Source: a virus
Reading direction: 5' to 3' (one strand)
Length of the DNA: 22,224 nucleotides
Virus record (IMG/VR): IMGVR_UViG_3300042905_002728
Span: 1 to 22,224 of that record
Shown here: piece by piece, positions 692 to 12,608 of the stretch
Position numbering within the stretch: position 1 is the first letter of the stretch
How the letters are laid out: each line of letters begins with the position of its first letter
Program-made: the position numbers and the translations under genes
Notes under the pieces: generated by a model
The model's database searches: none
Seen by the model: only the letters and a program-made list of their open reading frames with translations
What the model was told of the DNA's origin: nothing

Positions 692-720
692 TTGACAAGT
701 GTTGAACGGTTGGTCATAAT
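692..720 (+). promoter_or_regulatory. Strong sigma-A-type promoter for the plus-strand operon
   Basis: A perfect -35 hexamer TTGACA at 692-697 is separated by exactly 17 bases from CATAAT at 715-720, which matches five of six positions of TATAAT. A start near 727 would give a leader of roughly 37 bases carrying the Shine-Dalgarno AAAGGGG before the ATG at 764. An A/T-rich run (669-680) just upstream could act as an UP-like element. It is placed correctly to drive the whole 764-4957 operon, consistent with immediate early expression by host polymerase. Confidence 0.8.
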
Positions 721-1245: not shown

Positions 1246-1427
1246 TGCACCGCGAACATCTCTCCCAATTAGAGGCGCAAGGGTTCACCATTGTTGGTGA
1301 GTATGCACCTCTCAAGTATTTAGGCGGGGTGGTGGTCATCACCCCCAACGGGAACCGAACAGTAATCACCTCAGTGTGTGGTCACTGTTGCCACCCGTGG
1401 AGCGGTTGCGTATGTGAGGAAGATTAG
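1245..1427 (+). CDS. Hypothetical 60-residue protein with a C-terminal Cys cluster
   Basis: The start is taken as the ATG at 1245 (overlapping the previous TGA) with GGAG about ten bases upstream; a GTG at 1242 is possible. An N-terminal part with beta-strand-like character leads to a cysteine cluster near the C-terminus: C45, C48, C49, C55 and C57, with His50 between. This could bind one zinc ion, although the C-x2-CC-x5-C-x-C pattern matches no family I know. Its stop codon TAG (1425-1427) lies in the 5' arm of a hairpin that begins the structured leader of the next gene. Confidence 0.65.
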   Translation: MHREHLSQLEAQGFTIVGEYAPLKYLGGVVVITPNGNRTVITSVCGHCCHPWSGCVCEED

Positions 1428-1520
1428 AACCTAATCGGGCGGGGTGCTGCACCGCTTGAGAGTCACTCTCTCACCGCCCACGATGGCCCGCACGGGGTCA
1501 CAACAACAGAAAGGGAACGC
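1422..1520 (+). promoter_or_regulatory. Candidate structured leader RNA, copy A
   Basis: Successive complementary segments predict: a stop-codon hairpin GATTAG/CTAATC (1422-1427 with 1431-1436); a three-way junction closed by GGGCGG (1437-1442) with CCGCCC (1474-1479); inside it a 4-bp hairpin GGTG-CTG-CACC (1443-1453) and a 5-bp hairpin GAGAG-TCA-CTCTC (1458-1470); and a further hairpin GGCCC/GGGTC (1485-1489 with 1495-1499, one G-U pair). The Shine-Dalgarno CAGAAAGGG follows. The same layout with different stem sequences recurs at 2080-2186. This is a prediction by eye; the function is unknown, perhaps translational control or transcript processing. Confidence 0.5.
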
Positions 1521-1524
1521 AACT

Positions 1525-1695
1525 ATGCGAAACGATGAGATAGACCTACGTGCTGCGGTGGTCGAAGAAATAGCGGGAGAGTACGACAATGTCCCCTTGT
1601 GGATTATCGCTAGAACGCTCACGGCGTTGGAAACAGTCCTTGCCTCTAATGGGTTCGCCATCGTTGACGGCGACCTCGGGATTATTGAACTATGA
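1525..1695 (+). CDS. Hypothetical 56-residue protein
   Basis: The ATG at 1525 is chosen because CAGAAAGGG lies at a suitable distance upstream and the gene follows a predicted structured leader. An in-frame ATG at 1483 would add 14 residues, but it lies inside the conserved leader structure. The protein is short, acidic at the N-terminus and mostly helical in appearance (about residues 7-43), ending in a beta-like segment FAIVDGDLGIIEL. No family is recognised. Its stop overlaps the next ATG as ATGA, indicating translational coupling. Confidence 0.62.
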   Translation: MRNDEIDLRAAVVEEIAGEYDNVPLWIIARTLTALETVLASNGFAIVDGDLGIIEL

Positions 1696-1904
1696 ACCGC
1701 CCAGATAGCCGGATACCCGCCCCAGATCTAGAACGGCTCACCGATGAGGTAGAGGAGGTGCTTGTGGCGGGGTGGCGTGATGATAGTCGGGAGGCGTGGC
1801 AAATTGCCGCCGACATCGTTGCCGTTATCCTTGACAAGTGTCTAACAGTTTGCAATAATGACACCAACGGGGCGCAAGCTCCCAAACAGAAAAGGGGCAA
1901 CTAA
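1692..1904 (+). CDS. Hypothetical 70-residue helical protein
   Basis: Starts at an ATG overlapping the previous stop (ATGA) and has no clear Shine-Dalgarno of its own, so translation is probably coupled. Residues 12-52 look like two amphipathic helices (DLERLTDEVEEVLVAGW and REAWQIAADIVAVILDKCL). The C-terminal QKRGN tail is encoded by bases that also form the AGAAAAGGGGC ribosome-binding site of the next gene. No family is recognised. Confidence 0.62.
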   Translation: MNRPDSRIPAPDLERLTDEVEEVLVAGWRDDSREAWQIAADIVAVILDKCLTVCNNDTNGAQAPKQKRGN

Positions 1905-2086
1905 TGCCGATTACCGTCACACTCTTTACCGATACGGGCGGAGGGTTCACTAAGACATTCACCGATGCTGCTACGGCGGAGGAGTTTCTATTCGGCTCTA
2001 TGGGTCTTAGCACCTCTAAGGGTCTTATCGTTGAGGGTTATTTTGCAGACCCAGAAACGGGCGAGCAGACCTACGCTGAGTACTAA
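1904..2086 (+). CDS. Hypothetical 60-residue protein
   Basis: The start overlaps the previous stop by one base (TAATG) and is preceded by AGAAAAGGGGC. The N-terminal part alternates as in beta strands (residues 3-20), followed by a helix-like DAATAEEFLFGSMGL and another beta-like segment. The motif TAEEFL and overall size are common in small phage proteins that lack known function. Its stop codon TAA (2084-2086) lies within a predicted hairpin that opens the second structured leader. Confidence 0.62.
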   Translation: MPITVTLFTDTGGGFTKTFTDAATAEEFLFGSMGLSTSKGLIVEGYFADPETGEQTYAEY

Positions 2087-2186
2087 CTAAGTACGGGGCG
2101 GGGTTAGACCCTCGATAGGTTCGCCACCTATCCGCCCACTATGCCCACAAGGGGCAGAACCGCTACGGCGGGCAAACAGAAAGGGG
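2080..2186 (+). promoter_or_regulatory. Candidate structured leader RNA, copy B
   Basis: Same order of elements as at 1422-1520. Stop-codon hairpin GTACT/AGTAC (2080-2084 with 2090-2094). Junction closed by GGGCG (2096-2100) with CGCCC (2133-2137), enclosing a 4-bp hairpin GGGT-TAG-ACCC (2101-2111) and a 6-bp hairpin GATAGG/CCTATC (2114-2119 with 2127-2132). Then TGCCC/GGGCA (2142-2146 with 2152-2156), an extra small hairpin CCGC-TACG-GCGG (2160-2171), and the Shine-Dalgarno CAGAAAGGGGG. Stems differ from copy A while pairing, loop sizes and unpaired blocks are kept, which is what compensatory change would produce. Confidence 0.5.
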
Positions 2187-2195
2187 GCGGGCGTA

Positions 2196-2711
2196 ATGTC
2201 TGCTTATCAAGTGAACAAGGACACCATAGATCTAATGGTGTCGGTATTGGTGGAGTGGAACGGGGCGCATAGAACCCCTACTACGTACACATACGGGGAA
2301 CACCCAACAGATCCGGAGCTGCCTTTCGCGGTTGGTGGCGGTTTTGCAATTGTGGACACCAACCACAACACCGCCGATGCCCTAGGGCGGGAGTTGATTG
2401 TTGCCAATGTGCGGAGCCTTACGGCACGGTATAGCGACGGCATCGAGATGGTTAGCTACTTTCCGAATGACTACACCTGGCGACGGGTCACAACAGATGA
2501 GGCAACCGTTGCGCAAGCTATGGGGGCGGTCAATTGTTACCGTTACCAGGCTTGTGAGTTTGACGGGTGGCGGGGTTCTTTCGCTGGCGAGCTTTCGCAA
2601 CGTTGCCTAGACAAGCTCGTTGACATGGTGGCCGATGGTTGGGATTATGAACGCCCCGCCAACCGTGGCACCGTTGTTTCCATTTTTGACATGGCTAGAG
2701 GGGAGGCATAG
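2196..2711 (+). CDS. Conserved phage-type hypothetical protein with a YRYQACE motif
   Basis: 171 residues, the largest product of the early operon. The ATG at 2196 follows AAAGGGGGCGGGCG. About residues 112-125 read CYRYQACEFDGW. From memory, a family of phage proteins of unknown function carries a similar Y-x-Y-Q-x-C-E-x2-x-W segment near the C-terminus after a helix-turn region, but I cannot confirm this. Residues 45-57 (FAVGGGFAIVDTN) and the LIVANVRSLTARY segment look like strands and a helix of a mixed domain. No catalytic motif is evident. It is the first gene after structured leader B and is probably regulated with it. Confidence 0.72.
   Translation: MSAYQVNKDTIDLMVSVLVEWNGAHRTPTTYTYGEHPTDPELPFAVGGGFAIVDTNHNTADALGRELIVANVRSLTARYSDGIEMVSYFPNDYTWRRVTTDEATVAQAMGAVNCYRYQACEFDGWRGSFAGELSQRCLDKLVDMVADGWDYERPANRGTVVSIFDMARGEA
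2220..2242. repeat. Perfect inverted repeat, 8-bp arms around AGATCTA
   Basis: GACACCAT (2220-2227) and ATGGTGTC (2235-2242) are exact reverse complements separated by AGATCTA. It sits 25 bases into the coding region of the 2196 gene. It may be a protein-binding site or an RNA hairpin just after the start codon. The right half, AGATCTAATGGTG, recurs exactly at 3200-3212 without its left arm. Confidence 0.65.
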
Positions 2712-5313: not shown

Positions 5314-6828
5314 TTAGTTAGCATCGGGGTGTGTTGCGAGGATGTGTTTGGCTATCCATTGGGCGACTGGTGAGGCGATGCCGTTGCCGCACATTTTGTA
5401 TCGGTTGGTGTCTGATACTGCACCGTTGGTTCCTTGTGCGGTGTGGTTGTCGGGCCAGCCCATTAGTCGTTCACATTCGAGTGGTGTAAGGCGACGAACG
5501 ATGAGGGTTGGTTCTCGTAGGTCGGCTATGAAGTCTGATAAGTCTCTCCCGATGCGCCATGATCGGTGGATTTCTTCTTCGATGGTTTGGTTGTAGCCGT
5601 CATACGAGATTGCTTGTGTTTGTTCAGAAATAATTATTGTTTCTGAACCACCACCTAAGTCGCCGCCATGCGCTTTAAGTGTCCCGACACCTTCAACGTA
5701 TTTTGCAAATGAAGTTGCTGTATAACCGACTTCTTGTTGTGTAACGCTTGGTGGTTGTTGGCTAGCTTTCAATGTTGGTGCCTGGTCTTCAAACACGTTT
5801 GCGTTTGACCCGAACTGTGTGTCAAAAGACAGTGTGGTTTGGAACAATGTTTGATCGTTGGATGTACCCAATGTCAAACTAATGTCTTCACTAATCAATG
5901 GGCCTTTGCCGCCACCTGGTTTTCCTTCACGGTTGCGGAGAAGAATTGTGTCTTGTGCTACGACAGGGACATTGTTCCCGCCGGTACCCATCCGTTCCTG
6001 AAGTGTTTGGACAGGTTCGCTATACACCCGTACGTCATCAACACGGCGACCATCCAACAGGATTGGTTCAACTATCAAATCAGTAGCGTCTTTGTAGTCT
6101 CGTTGTTTCAACGCCGAAGCTGTACCATCATCGTTGTATTCACCAAAAGAAACTAATCGGAATCCTTCTGAGCTACTTGTTCCAACGCAATCCGCAGTCT
6201 CTCTGGCAACTCCTTGTTTCTTCTTGCCGCCCTTCGCAGAATCCCCTGACACGCTTTCGCAGACAGGAAATAACGGCGATCCACATCGTTCGCTTGTTGC
6301 AGAATCGAAACAAGACGTGACGAACACGCGCCGTCGTCGTTGGGGTACTCCAAAGTATTGTGCATCCAGCACGGTCCACTCACTGAAACACGCCCCTGCT
6401 TCATCCATTTCGTGGAGGACTTCCCCGAAGTCGGAACCTCCGTTGGATGATAAGGCCCCGACGACATTTTCCCAAACAGACCAGGTTGGTGATGTTCCAT
6501 TAGATAACTCCCTCAATTCTTTGATGATACGGATTCCTTGGTGAAACAACCCTGAGCGTTCACCGGATAAACCAGCTCTTTTGCCAGCAAGCGATAGGTC
6601 TTGGCAGGGTGAACCCCACGCAACAACATCAACACCACCTGTGACTTCAAGGATGTGCGCCCCTGTGAGGGTGGAAACATCATCCCATTTCGGTACATCA
6701 GGCCAGTGATAGTCAAGTACGGAGCGAGCGTGTTTGTCAATTTCGCATTGGAAAACAGTGGTCATACCTGCTGCTTCCAACCCCATGTCGAATCCACCGA
6801 CCCCCGAAAACAGTGAAAGGACACGCAT
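5314..6828 (-). CDS. C5-cytosine DNA methyltransferase with a repeat-filled recognition region
   Basis: 504 residues. Conserved motifs in order: I, LFSGVGGFDMGLEAAG (6-21), binding S-adenosylmethionine; IV, GSPCQDLS (72-79) with catalytic C75; VI, ENV (120-122); VIII, QRRRR (163-167); IX, RRLTPLECERLMGWP (445-459); X, CGNGIASP (480-487). Between VIII and IX, where target recognition is made, there are about 275 residues, longer than in single-specificity enzymes. These are built of repeated TL-containing units. No partner restriction enzyme is seen, so it probably protects phage DNA from host nucleases. The start overlaps the SSB stop (TGATG). Confidence 0.93.
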   Translation of the reverse strand: MRVLSLFSGVGGFDMGLEAAGMTTVFQCEIDKHARSVLDYHWPDVPKWDDVSTLTGAHILEVTGGVDVVAWGSPCQDLSLAGKRAGLSGERSGLFHQGIRIIKELRELSNGTSPTWSVWENVVGALSSNGGSDFGEVLHEMDEAGACFSEWTVLDAQYFGVPQRRRRVFVTSCFDSATSERCGSPLFPVCESVSGDSAKGGKKKQGVARETADCVGTSSSEGFRLVSFGEYNDDGTASALKQRDYKDATDLIVEPILLDGRRVDDVRVYSEPVQTLQERMGTGGNNVPVVAQDTILLRNREGKPGGGKGPLISEDISLTLGTSNDQTLFQTTLSFDTQFGSNANVFEDQAPTLKASQQPPSVTQQEVGYTATSFAKYVEGVGTLKAHGGDLGGGSETIIISEQTQAISYDGYNQTIEEEIHRSWRIGRDLSDFIADLREPTLIVRRLTPLECERLMGWPDNHTAQGTNGAVSDTNRYKMCGNGIASPVAQWIAKHILATHPDAN

Positions 6829-7235
6829 CAGAACGGGTCTTCGTCTGCCTGAATTTGACGTGCGCCAGGGAACACCTGACCAACTTGTGCCATTACCTTT
6901 TCGGTTTGGTCAGCAACCCACGAATTCCAACGGCAAGACATACCAACTTCGTCAGCAATCAACTTGACTGACTTACCTTTGGTGCCGTCTTTGGTGGTGA
7001 ATTCTTCCTGTTCGTAACGACCAACAACAATGACAGTTGATCCTTTAGCGATGCTGTTCGCGGTGTGTTCTGCAAGCTTGTTGAACACGGTGATGTTGTG
7101 CCAGGTTGTTTTCTTCTTCTCATCTTTGCCGTATGTGTCAGCAATCGAGAATGTCAGAACAGCCATCCCGCTTGGGGTGTATCGCAGTTCAGGATCTTGT
7201 CCGACCTTTCCGGATACGGTGATGTGGTTACTCAT
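6828..7235 (-). CDS. ssb: Single-stranded DNA-binding protein
   Basis: 135 residues with a typical N-terminal OB-fold: GKVGQDPELRYTPSG (9-23), FSIADTYGKDEKKKTTWHNITV and the GSTVIVVGRYEQEEF strand. The C-terminus ends in acidic DEDPF, the tip that in bacterial SSBs recruits replication and repair proteins. Length is slightly shorter than host SSBs. AGAGGGGG lies before the ATG. It sits in an operon with the methyltransferases and recombination genes, fitting a role in replication and in strand annealing with the Rad52/Erf-like protein. Confidence 0.93.
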   Translation of the reverse strand: MSNHITVSGKVGQDPELRYTPSGMAVLTFSIADTYGKDEKKKTTWHNITVFNKLAEHTANSIAKGSTVIVVGRYEQEEFTTKDGTKGKSVKLIADEVGMSCRWNSWVADQTEKVMAQVGQVFPGARQIQADEDPF

Positions 7236-7257
7236 TGGGTTCCCCCTCTTTCTGTAG

Positions 7258-7281
7258 TGGAAGTATTCTTCCAGCTTTTTT
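7258..7281 (+). terminator. Terminator-like hairpin on the strand opposite the SSB leader
   Basis: TGGAAG (7258-7263) pairs with CTTCCA (7268-7273) across a TATT loop and is followed by GC and six T on the plus strand, a minimal intrinsic terminator shape. No plus-strand gene lies here, so it might stop antisense transcription entering from the left. On the minus strand it would be a hairpin just 5' of the SSB ribosome-binding site. Short stem, so low confidence. Confidence 0.35.
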
Positions 7282-7345
7282 GTGACAACTGTGTGTCGGC
7301 GGGTGTATGACCGCTACGAACAAGGTTACTCTAATGTCGCAACGA

Positions 7346-7765
7346 TTACAAGACCAAACGGTGTTTTCGTTCTTTCCTGCACGTGCGACATTCACGCCCG
7401 TTGTTCGGTCTTCTGTATGTGTTTTCTTCTGTGTATTCATGTCCGTGTGGGCAGTGGGTTCTGTTTGCATAATAGTGGCGGCCTCTGTCAACAACATCTT
7501 TCATGTTGTCGGTTTGGGTTCCGCCTTCAAGGTGGTGTGGGTTGCAGCATCGGCGGTTGTCGCATTTGTGGCGTACCACTGGCGGTGTCTCGTATGTGGA
7601 GATGTAGTGCGAAAAGCGGTGGACTGAACGGTGTTTGCCTTGGGCGTAGAACTGTCCGTAGCCGTCTCCTCTGAGTGATCCTTGCCATTCCCAACAGTCT
7701 TCGGGGTTGCCGATGTTGACTCTTGCCCAGAATCGGGTTGTGATTTTGTATAGAAACGTTTCCAT
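7346..7765 (-). CDS. Free-standing HNH endonuclease
   Basis: 139 residues. The sequence follows the small phage/intron HNH_3-type pattern: CWEWQGSLRGDGYGQF (24-39), the first His in SVHRFSHY, then HKCDNRRCCNPHHLEGGT with the HNH core Asn and His plus Cys pairs for zinc. A C-terminal CPHGHEYTEENTY / CRTCRKERKHR segment is a second zinc-binding element often seen in homing endonucleases. ATG is preceded by AAGGGCGG. It lies between the TSPPY methyltransferase and ssb with about 30 and 110 bases of flanking sequence, typical of a mobile cutting gene inserted between phage genes. Confidence 0.92.
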   Translation of the reverse strand: METFLYKITTRFWARVNIGNPEDCWEWQGSLRGDGYGQFYAQGKHRSVHRFSHYISTYETPPVVRHKCDNRRCCNPHHLEGGTQTDNMKDVVDRGRHYYANRTHCPHGHEYTEENTYRRPNNGRECRTCRKERKHRLVL

Positions 7766-7795
7766 ACGCCGCCCTTGGTCAGCCCCGCCTGTGTT

Positions 7796-8761
7796 TTACG
7801 ATAACACAACATCGTTGATTAGCCCCCCAACTGCTTCTGTTATACGGTTTATTGCTATGTCTGCGTATTCAGGGTTGAGTTCTGTGCCGACATAGTTACG
7901 GCCATGGCGTAGTGCCACGACAGCTACAGTTCCTGAACCCGTGAACGGGTCTAGAACGGTGTCTCCTGGTCGGCTTGACGCTAGTACGCATGGCTCGACG
8001 ATTGCTTCTGGCATGACAGCAAAATGTGCGCCCTTGAACGGTTTAGTAGGGATAAACCAAACATCGCGCTTATTTCTTTTTCCACTATCGGTGTATTCGT
8101 TTCCTGATTTTGTGGCGTGTTTGGGATCGTCACTATCACCGTATTTGCTTCCACCAAATTTGATTTTTGTTGATCCAAGATTTGCCGATGGTTCTTTGAT
8201 TGCTTCGTTATCAAAAAAGTACCGGCTTGATTTGGTCAGCATAAAAATGTATTCATGTGATTTAGTACAACGGTCACGCACTGATTCCGGCATTGGGTTT
8301 GGTTTCGCCCAAATAATGTCTTGGCGTAGATACCATCCGTCGTCTTGAAGTGCGAACGCCAGTCGCCACGGAATACCAACAAGATCTTTAGGTTTTAACG
8401 GTAGTTCTCCTTTATTGACTTTTATTGGGTCAAACGCTTGGAAGTTGGCTTTCCCTTTTATTGCATTTTTGGGAGATGTTTCGGGATTCATCCCACCAGT
8501 GCCACGGGTTGTTGAATAGTAGCTGTCCCCCACATTGAGCCATAGCACCCCATCATCAGACAACACGCGCCATACTTCGCGGAATACGGACACCATTTCA
8601 GCAATGTATTCCTGCGGGGTTTGTTCTAAACCGATTTGACCATCGTTTCCATAATCACGCAACCCCCAATACGGCGGGCTAGTTACGACACACTGCACCG
8701 ACTTGTCAGGTATTTCTGCTAGGCGAGAACGAACATCGCCAACAAGGATTTCTGCTTTCAT
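7796..8761 (-). CDS. TSPPY-type DNA methyltransferase (N4-cytosine or N6-adenine, beta class)
   Basis: 321 residues. The catalytic motif IV, TSPPYWGLRDYG (27-38), lies near the N-terminus and the S-adenosylmethionine motif, DPFTGSGT (271-278), near the C-terminus. This is the beta-class order. TSPPY is more usual for N4-cytosine enzymes, but N6-adenine enzymes such as those for GATC-like or CANNTG sites can also have it. The middle region (100-240) would hold the recognition domain. AGAAAGAAGTGGG precedes the ATG. It is an orphan; together with the C5 enzyme it would give the phage two modification patterns, probably to evade host restriction. Confidence 0.93.
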   Translation of the reverse strand: MKAEILVGDVRSRLAEIPDKSVQCVVTSPPYWGLRDYGNDGQIGLEQTPQEYIAEMVSVFREVWRVLSDDGVLWLNVGDSYYSTTRGTGGMNPETSPKNAIKGKANFQAFDPIKVNKGELPLKPKDLVGIPWRLAFALQDDGWYLRQDIIWAKPNPMPESVRDRCTKSHEYIFMLTKSSRYFFDNEAIKEPSANLGSTKIKFGGSKYGDSDDPKHATKSGNEYTDSGKRNKRDVWFIPTKPFKGAHFAVMPEAIVEPCVLASSRPGDTVLDPFTGSGTVAVVALRHGRNYVGTELNPEYADIAINRITEAVGGLINDVVLS

Positions 8762-11652: not shown

Positions 11653-12608
11653 TATTTTTCTCCCTTCAAGAGAAAGCTTCTTGTTGTTGTTGTTTTGACG
11701 AACTGGCTATGCAGTTCAGGGTGCGCTTCCTTGAACGATTTAGCGTCAAAGGTGGTGCGTTCTTGTGCCTTCCAAGTGGCAACTGTTGTACCGTTGATGG
11801 TAGCGGTGTCACACTCGCCTATCAACTCACAAATCTGAGATTTCAAATCATCTTCCAACTGCTTGTATGAATCCAGTTCGCTACGCACATGACGAAGACG
11901 ATCAAACAATTCAGCAGCAGTCTCAGGTAACTCTTGAATCTTGCTCACGCTTTTCTTGTATCGAGTAGCGGTTGTTTCATACGACCACTTCACACCAGTA
12001 GGCATCATGCCTAATTCGATAGCGTTCAGCCAAGCTTCAACAGCAGAGATATGTTCAGCCATTTCCGCCGGTGTAATCACCTGCTTGTGCAGATGCAGAA
12101 TCATTGACGGATCAAAGACAGCCCACAGCACTTCGTTAGTGTCGGCACAGATGGCCTGTTGAATACCTTGGATGCGCCAGTAGTCAGGCAGGTTGCCTTC
12201 CCATTTGCGGGTGGTGGTTTTGATTTCCAAAATCATGCGGGTGTCACCGTCTTCGTAATACCCGTCGAGTGTGGAAACCATCCGCGCACCGTTTGGTGAA
12301 TCAGCGGCGAACATTTCTTCGGGTGTGATGTACGGAACACCAATCTTGTCGGCGGCCCATTCAAGAACGAATGGTTCTAAACGGTTGCCACGTTCCATTG
12401 CAGGGTTCGGTGGAATTGGTGTAGGTGCAACATCACCTAATAGTTCTGCTGCGTATGCGTCTTTCTTGACGAATGGATGCAACCCGTAGATTGCTGCCAC
12501 AGCTGATGCGGATACACGCTTGTTTCCTTCTTCATCTCGGAAACGAATGTTCAGCCAGTCTTGCCCACCGTGTTCTGGTTTGGCAATCCGATAACGATGT
12601 AGAGCCAT
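11652..12608 (-). CDS. YqaJ-type phage recombination exonuclease
   Basis: 318 residues. The N-terminal domain has the lambda-exonuclease pattern: SASAVAAIYGLHPF (33-46), MERGNRLEPFVLEWA with the G-x3-E motif, STLDGYYED with a metal-binding Asp, and MILEIKTTTRKW with E-x-K. The following YWRIQGIQQAI helix is also usual. It would resect 5' strands of double-stranded DNA. The C-terminal third is a coiled-coil-like helix (TAAELFDRLRHVRSELDSY) and an unknown end. AGGAGGGGC lies before the ATG, with a promoter-like site 35-61 bases upstream. It is translated with the annealing protein as a pair. Confidence 0.88.
   Translation of the reverse strand: MALHRYRIAKPEHGGQDWLNIRFRDEEGNKRVSASAVAAIYGLHPFVKKDAYAAELLGDVAPTPIPPNPAMERGNRLEPFVLEWAADKIGVPYITPEEMFAADSPNGARMVSTLDGYYEDGDTRMILEIKTTTRKWEGNLPDYWRIQGIQQAICADTNEVLWAVFDPSMILHLHKQVITPAEMAEHISAVEAWLNAIELGMMPTGVKWSYETTATRYKKSVSKIQELPETAAELFDRLRHVRSELDSYKQLEDDLKSQICELIGECDTATINGTTVATWKAQERTTFDAKSFKEAHPELHSQFVKTTTTRSFLLKGEK

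Follow-up and report, generated by a model that had tools for sequence, protein, structure and literature searches.

The window analysed here is a 22,224-nucleotide stretch of virus DNA (IMG/VR record IMGVR_UViG_3300042905_002728, positions 1–22,224). As read from its open reading frames and sequence, its left part holds a rightward early operon, and inside this lie two structured leaders: a first element at 1437–1500, in the gap before a 56-amino-acid gene at 1525, and a second at 2096–2156, before a 171-amino-acid gene at 2196 (Table 1). The 56-amino-acid product has no protein family match and the 171-amino-acid protein no Pfam or PHROG match; the latter shares an invariant CYxYQxCE...W stretch with distant phage proteins in contigs L012–L016. 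Elsewhere (5317–8761 and 11655–12608, minus strand), the window encodes C5-cytosine and N6/N4 DNA methyltransferases, an SSB and a RecE-like (YqaJ) exonuclease.

Table 1. Features of the early operon and its two leaders in the window
Feature	Position	Strand	Basis or remark
Sigma70-like promoter TTGACA-17-CATAAT	692..720	+	Sequence; early operon, both leaders downstream
First leader, P0 hairpin GATTAG aac CTAATC over TAG stop of preceding gene	1422..1436	+	Abuts the element
First leader, P1 5′ strand GGGCGG, acceptor-stem-like	1437..1442	+	Fold, core parsing
First leader, P2 hairpin GGTG(ctg)CACC, D-arm-like, G is last loop base	1443..1453	+	Fold, core parsing
First leader, P3 hairpin TGAGAG(tcact)CTCTCA, T-arm-like	1457..1473	+	Fold, core parsing
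First leader, P1 3′ strand CCGCCC	1474..1479	+	Fold, core parsing
First leader, tail ACGA (R-C-N-A)	1480..1483	+	Core parsing, descriptor
First leader, P4 hairpin TGGCCC(gcacg)GGGTCA	1484..1500	+	Fold
Ribosome-binding site AGAAAGGG of gene 1525–1695	1508..1515	+	Sequence
Second leader, P0 hairpin GTACT aacta AGTAC over upstream stop	2080..2094	+	Fold; close to the element
Second leader, P1 5′ strand GGGCG	2096..2100	+	Fold, core parsing
Second leader, P2 hairpin GGGT(tag)ACCC	2101..2111	+	Fold, core parsing
Second leader, P3 hairpin GATAGGT(tcgcc)ACCTATC, T-arm-like	2114..2132	+	Fold, covariation alignment, core parsing
Second leader, P1 3′ strand CGCCC	2133..2137	+	Fold, core parsing
Second leader, tail ACTA (R-C-N-A)	2138..2141	+	Core parsing, descriptor
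Second leader, P4 hairpin TGCCC(acaag)GGGCA	2142..2156	+	Fold, covariation alignment
Extra hairpin CCGC(tacg)GCGG after second element	2160..2171	+	Fold; also present in L002, L003, L010 and L011
Ribosome-binding site AGAAAGGGGG of gene 2196–2711	2178..2187	+	Fold, sequence
171-amino-acid early protein, synteny anchor	2196..2711	+	Protein searches

An earlier note on this DNA had proposed that the two leaders share one RNA architecture, and the coordinates and sequences it gave for the stop-codon hairpins (1422–1436 and 2080–2094), the 3-nt-loop hairpin and the second hairpin, the AC(G/T)ATG, the final hairpin and AGAAAGGG are correct. When 1434–1500 and 2092–2160 are folded alone, the proposed structure is both the minimum-free-energy and the centroid structure of each (−32.4 kcal/mol with a z-score of −2.2, and −28.6 kcal/mol with a z-score of −2.5), values around −2.3 that would not by themselves be compelling. 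The fold of the whole of 2080–2200 prefers an alternative in which the P1 3′ strand pairs with the region of the ribosome-binding site (2185–2192, the Shine–Dalgarno region of this gene, can pair with 2131–2137); the first leader has no such pairing between its P1 3′ strand and its Shine–Dalgarno region. The stop-codon hairpin, present at both leaders of the window, is not general in the wider RNA family.

It is mainly the homologs that exclude chance. Searching a viral collection with the 171-amino-acid protein and inspecting the sequence that precedes the genes of its relatives, a route that uses no RNA model, we found the same RNA before the gene in L002, L003, L010 and L011, the same architecture in unrelated sequence in L008 (GTGCTAGT-CCGC(gtag)GCGG-caa-AGGT(tcatg)ACCT-ACTAGCAC-GCTA), and further-diverged versions before remoter relatives in L004, L006, L111 and L114. 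A covariance model built from 12 sequences (R1) added divergent copies on these contigs, usually three to a contig, and pattern scans aimed at two more sub-families, together with models R2 and R3, widened the set. At E < 1 × 10−8, R3 matches one 75-kb contig seven times and an 8.7-kb contig six times, and strong copies reach about seven per contig.

The stems of these copies covary. In the 12-sequence alignment, pairing is seen in 94.8% of cells and covariation scores 0.324, compared to 0.100 ± 0.019 for shuffled alignments, none of 500 shuffles equalling it. The alignments of the other two sub-families score 0.475 against 0.188 and 0.490 against 0.171, the structure again standing above every shuffle, and structures slid along the alignment score far lower. 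In the R3 alignment P1, P2, P3 and the Shine–Dalgarno hairpin all include pairs altered on both sides. The compensatory stem changes read by the earlier note from two copies are thus borne out in three separately aligned sub-families, and its view of a repeated cis-acting RNA holds, given homologs with the same architecture upstream of the same gene and strong covariation.

A structural descriptor, which required an R-C-N-[AG] tail and a 10–13-bp stack, identifies 37 elements across 283 kb from related contigs and 0 in ten dinucleotide shuffles (2.8 Mb); because of these two requirements, independent support for tail and stack length is limited to the copies found by synteny, the initial 12 sequences and R1's type-B matches. 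Run on all fetched sequence, and with four doubtful matches set aside, it gives 62 distinct cores with 19 P1, 22 P2 and 34 P3 sequences, drawn from related virus contigs through covariance models, gene synteny and pattern scans. Both leaders are members of a large RNA family without earlier description, which uncultured phages carry in repeated copies ahead of many early genes. Within type-B contigs a third copy (ACGCGG GGCCA..TGGCC GTCACG TTCGATT CGTGAC CCGCGT) is almost invariant (L019 5006, L024 9786, L026 6785, L082 9325 and L133 5395), whereas the other copies diverge.

The earlier note knew of no matching motif, and the comparison with Rfam that it had suggested returns no family of release 15 at the gathering threshold; permissive E-values give only sub-threshold noise and weak matches to mascRNA and tmRNA. 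The best of these, at L082 7582–7630, is to mascRNA-menRNA (RF01684; 24.9 bits, E = 0.033, gathering threshold 42.5 bits), and the next for the same copy is to the 3′ part of tmRNA (E = 0.11), both families being tRNA-like.

In tRNA, the acceptor/T stack has 12 bp, the T-loop C lies at a spacing of 16 from R73 and the 3′ end reads R73-C74-C75-A76. In divergent copies of the phage element, P3 is a T-arm with a TTCGAYY, TTCGAT or TTCAAT loop (for example GTCACG(TTCGACC)CGTGAC, GCGGGG(TTCGATT)CCCCGC and CCCG(TTCAAT)CGGG), whereas in the window copies the T-loop equivalent is shortened to a UCRYN pentaloop, so the likeness to an acceptor/T-arm, visible from the homologs, is hidden in these two alone. 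Zero or one base separates P3 from the P1 3′ strand, placing the T-arm on the acceptor-like stem, and although the division between P1 and P3 varies from 5 + 7 to 8 + 4 bp, their stack measures 11 bp in 50 of the 62 cores, 12 in 7 and 13 in 5. Counting from the loop C (C56), the base (R) that follows the P1 3′ strand is 14–16 nt away in all 62 descriptor cores. P2 resembles a D-arm, with a G as last loop base or next base in 60/62 cores, and the P3 loop carries a UC. Parsed without sequence constraint, 46 of 53 cores have R-C-N-A directly after P1 and almost never at neighbouring offsets, and the synteny-only copies end in GCTA (L008), GCGA (L111) and ACGA (L114). An exact ACCA occurs once (L133), position 75 not being conserved as C, and R-C-N is the safer consensus because the fourth tail base is G, or paired within P4, in some type-D copies. 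These comparisons make it well supported that the leaders are tRNA-like, with a fold imitating the acceptor/T-arm (upper) half of a tRNA.

Such a T-arm, as found in real tRNAs, could also be a relic of decayed tRNA genes or part of a mobile repeat, and the T-loop pattern did match many tRNAs as well. The elements, however, have no anticodon arm and a fixed position before genes, ARAGORN and Rfam at its gathering threshold call no tRNA or tmRNA, and the stems are kept by compensatory change in dozens of copies; contradicted by this covariation, a decayed or mobile origin is hardly credible. A leader that forms a three-way junction and recurs within a genome would fit a metabolite riboswitch or an RNA that acts on RNA polymerase to cause antitermination, but we regard both as very unlikely: the junction strands are short and vary in length and sequence (tc, tt, gt, ta, cg, tg, ggc) with no conserved unpaired pocket, the conserved bases are those of the tRNA elbow and 3′ end, antitermination does not call for as many as about seven strong copies on a contig, every one linked to a start codon, and Rfam offers no match. 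Two further candidates were rejected, a flavivirus-like xrRNA, which has the same helix order but whose P3 loop would have to be complementary to the strand after P1 and is not, and a leader peptide, as the AUG within ACNAUG opens different frames and stops from copy to copy and is absent from some.

The elements, encoded on the coding strand, come shortly before the ribosome-binding site, with tails 34–66 nt from the start codon. P4 stands ahead of the start codon, joined in about half of the cores by a small hairpin that contains the Shine–Dalgarno sequence and has covarying outer pairs. Partial R3 matches in L236, L223, L268 and L285 (G025:7245–7282, G032:2865–2902 and others) cover the 3′ part only, as if some genes had P4 and the Shine–Dalgarno hairpin without the tRNA-like domain; the most divergent leaders (L004, L006, L111, L114 and L167, before 171-amino-acid and similar genes) carry a further hairpin after P4 whose loop holds AGCGG or CGGAGGCG. 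Proximity to the start codon, the covarying Shine–Dalgarno hairpin and the alternative pairing of the full-length second leader would all suit a translational regulator, in which the tRNA-like domain is the binding site of a factor that handles tRNA (the ribosome, a synthetase, a modification enzyme or a phage protein) and the Shine–Dalgarno region, held in its hairpin or paired to the P1 3′ strand, is opened or closed. Yet the first leader does not have this pairing, no switch is conserved across the family, and the downstream genes, which include a sliding-clamp relative (phrog_947) and many small proteins without assigned function, have no function in common; we consider such a regulator unlikely.

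On the upstream side, P1 of most internal copies starts 4–11 nt past the preceding stop codon. At promoter copies (L008, L010, L011, L019, L024, L045, L133 and L136) the −10 box ends 6–11 nt before P1, and transcription should therefore start at or close to P1. At L111 3508–3545 and in L004 upstream of 6001, the P1 3′ strand itself falls on a good promoter (TTGACA-17-TAATCT or TAGTCT), and one DNA stretch may therefore act as both RNA stem and promoter. A transcript that begins near a GC-rich, stable helix could simply be protected by it, the tRNA-like fold blocking RNase E, RNase J and pyrophosphohydrolase without any role for RNase P, and internal copies serving as roadblocks that shield the downstream operon. 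A plain hairpin would suffice for that, however, leaving the T-loops, the constant 14–16-nt spacing and R-C-N-A unexplained, and we think a stabiliser of this kind improbable.

RNase P gauges the distance from elbow to acceptor end and accepts any RNA that offers this stack (PMC4919913); the bacterial enzyme pairs with R73-C74-C75, and further phage RNAs as well as operon mRNAs are among its known substrates (PMC11143913). Constant spacing and tail are what such an enzyme would select, whereas neither feature would be required of a riboswitch or an ordinary hairpin. As internal copies start just past a stop codon and promoter copies near the transcription start, their placement suggests that a message with a tRNA-like helix as its 5′ end is the purpose.

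We propose that a phage gene's message carries, in each leader, a tRNA-like structure at its 5′ edge. P1 and P3 would form one coaxial acceptor/T-arm stack, P2 would be a short D-arm substitute whose loop G could contact the UC in the loop of P3, as happens in the tRNA elbow, and the R-C-N-A at the end of P1 would correspond to the tRNA 3′ end. Host RNase P would cut the polycistronic early transcript just 5′ of P1, leaving the gene with a separate mRNA whose 5′ monophosphate is sheltered in a stable helix; promoter copies, with transcription starting close to P1, would reach a nearly identical 5′ end, and mRNA stability or translation would presumably be affected. Such a tRNA-like punctuation element cut by RNase P is in our view the best explanation, with a probability of about 0.48. 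Whereas the structural claim is firm, the functional one stays at about even odds because the stack is usually 11 bp rather than the 12 of tRNA, position 75 is not C, and hairpins stand on both sides: P4, directly after the tail, could hinder the enzyme, and in the window P0 abuts (first leader) or nearly abuts (second leader) the 5′ side of P1. Promoter-proximal copies, moreover, would need no cut. That minimal tRNA mimics serve a widespread group of dsDNA phages as mRNA punctuation across the genome, RNase P cutting before each to release separately capped messages and the mimic doubling as a 5′ cap behind promoters, is a tentative extension that we place somewhat short of an even chance.

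tRNA mimicry is already known as a kind. MALAT1 mascRNA/menRNA (RF01684), the tRNA-like domain of tmRNA and the phage M3 and C4 RNAs likewise have a tRNA-like fold with a T-arm and are processed by RNase P (PMC4919913, PMC11143913), but the phage element differs from mascRNA-type substrates in being repeated in mRNA leaders, in having no anticodon arm and in being followed directly by P4 and a ribosome-binding site, with cleavage here a prediction. The 3′ tRNA-like structures of plant RNA viruses are also viral mimics of the acceptor/T-arm half, yet they sit at the genomic 3′ end, whereas these elements lie 5′ of individual dsDNA-phage genes and offer no free 3′ end for aminoacylation. Among phages, the closest precedent for a repeated element associated with gene starts is SAS/ESAS (start-associated sequences), motifs that recur at the starts of non-structural genes in cluster K mycobacteriophages and cluster EF Microbacterium phages, in which the 13-bp SAS places the Shine–Dalgarno sequence between complementary ends, much as the Shine–Dalgarno hairpin of our leaders does (PMC3203893, PMC7302621). 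These nevertheless differ from our leaders: in TM4 and AnnaSerena the ESAS have no likeness to tRNA, the descriptor has no match in TM4, Edmundo, Stella or AnnaSerena, and neither SAS consensus can be read in the two window leaders. In mitochondrial tRNA punctuation, too, structured tRNA units between genes mark cut sites in polycistronic RNA, but those are real tRNAs, whereas here a minimal mimic would be kept as the mRNA 5′ end. Single incidental RNase P sites were known from phage mRNA before; a search of open-licence full-text literature turned up no account of tRNA-like leaders in front of phage genes, which is not proof of novelty.

Weak protein similarity to Streptomyces and Arthrobacter phages makes an actinobacterial host likely, though not established. 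These phages have no close isolates: among isolate phages, blastn gave no match spanning most of an element and tblastn none for the 171-amino-acid and clamp proteins. In bacterial genomes a type-A pattern scan yielded no element, many of its matches being fumarase-like coding sequence, and R3 matched nothing in 398 genomes of two actinobacterial groups, a weak negative given the small share of candidates scored.

If the proposal is right, phage mRNA contains a dedicated, repeated tRNA mimic, through which the phage would set the 5′ ends and lifetimes of single messages by means of a host enzyme that cannot be lost. The family makes an old question, whether tRNA-like structures in bacterial operon mRNAs have any function, directly testable, and it would put compact, sequence-tolerant processing elements on offer.
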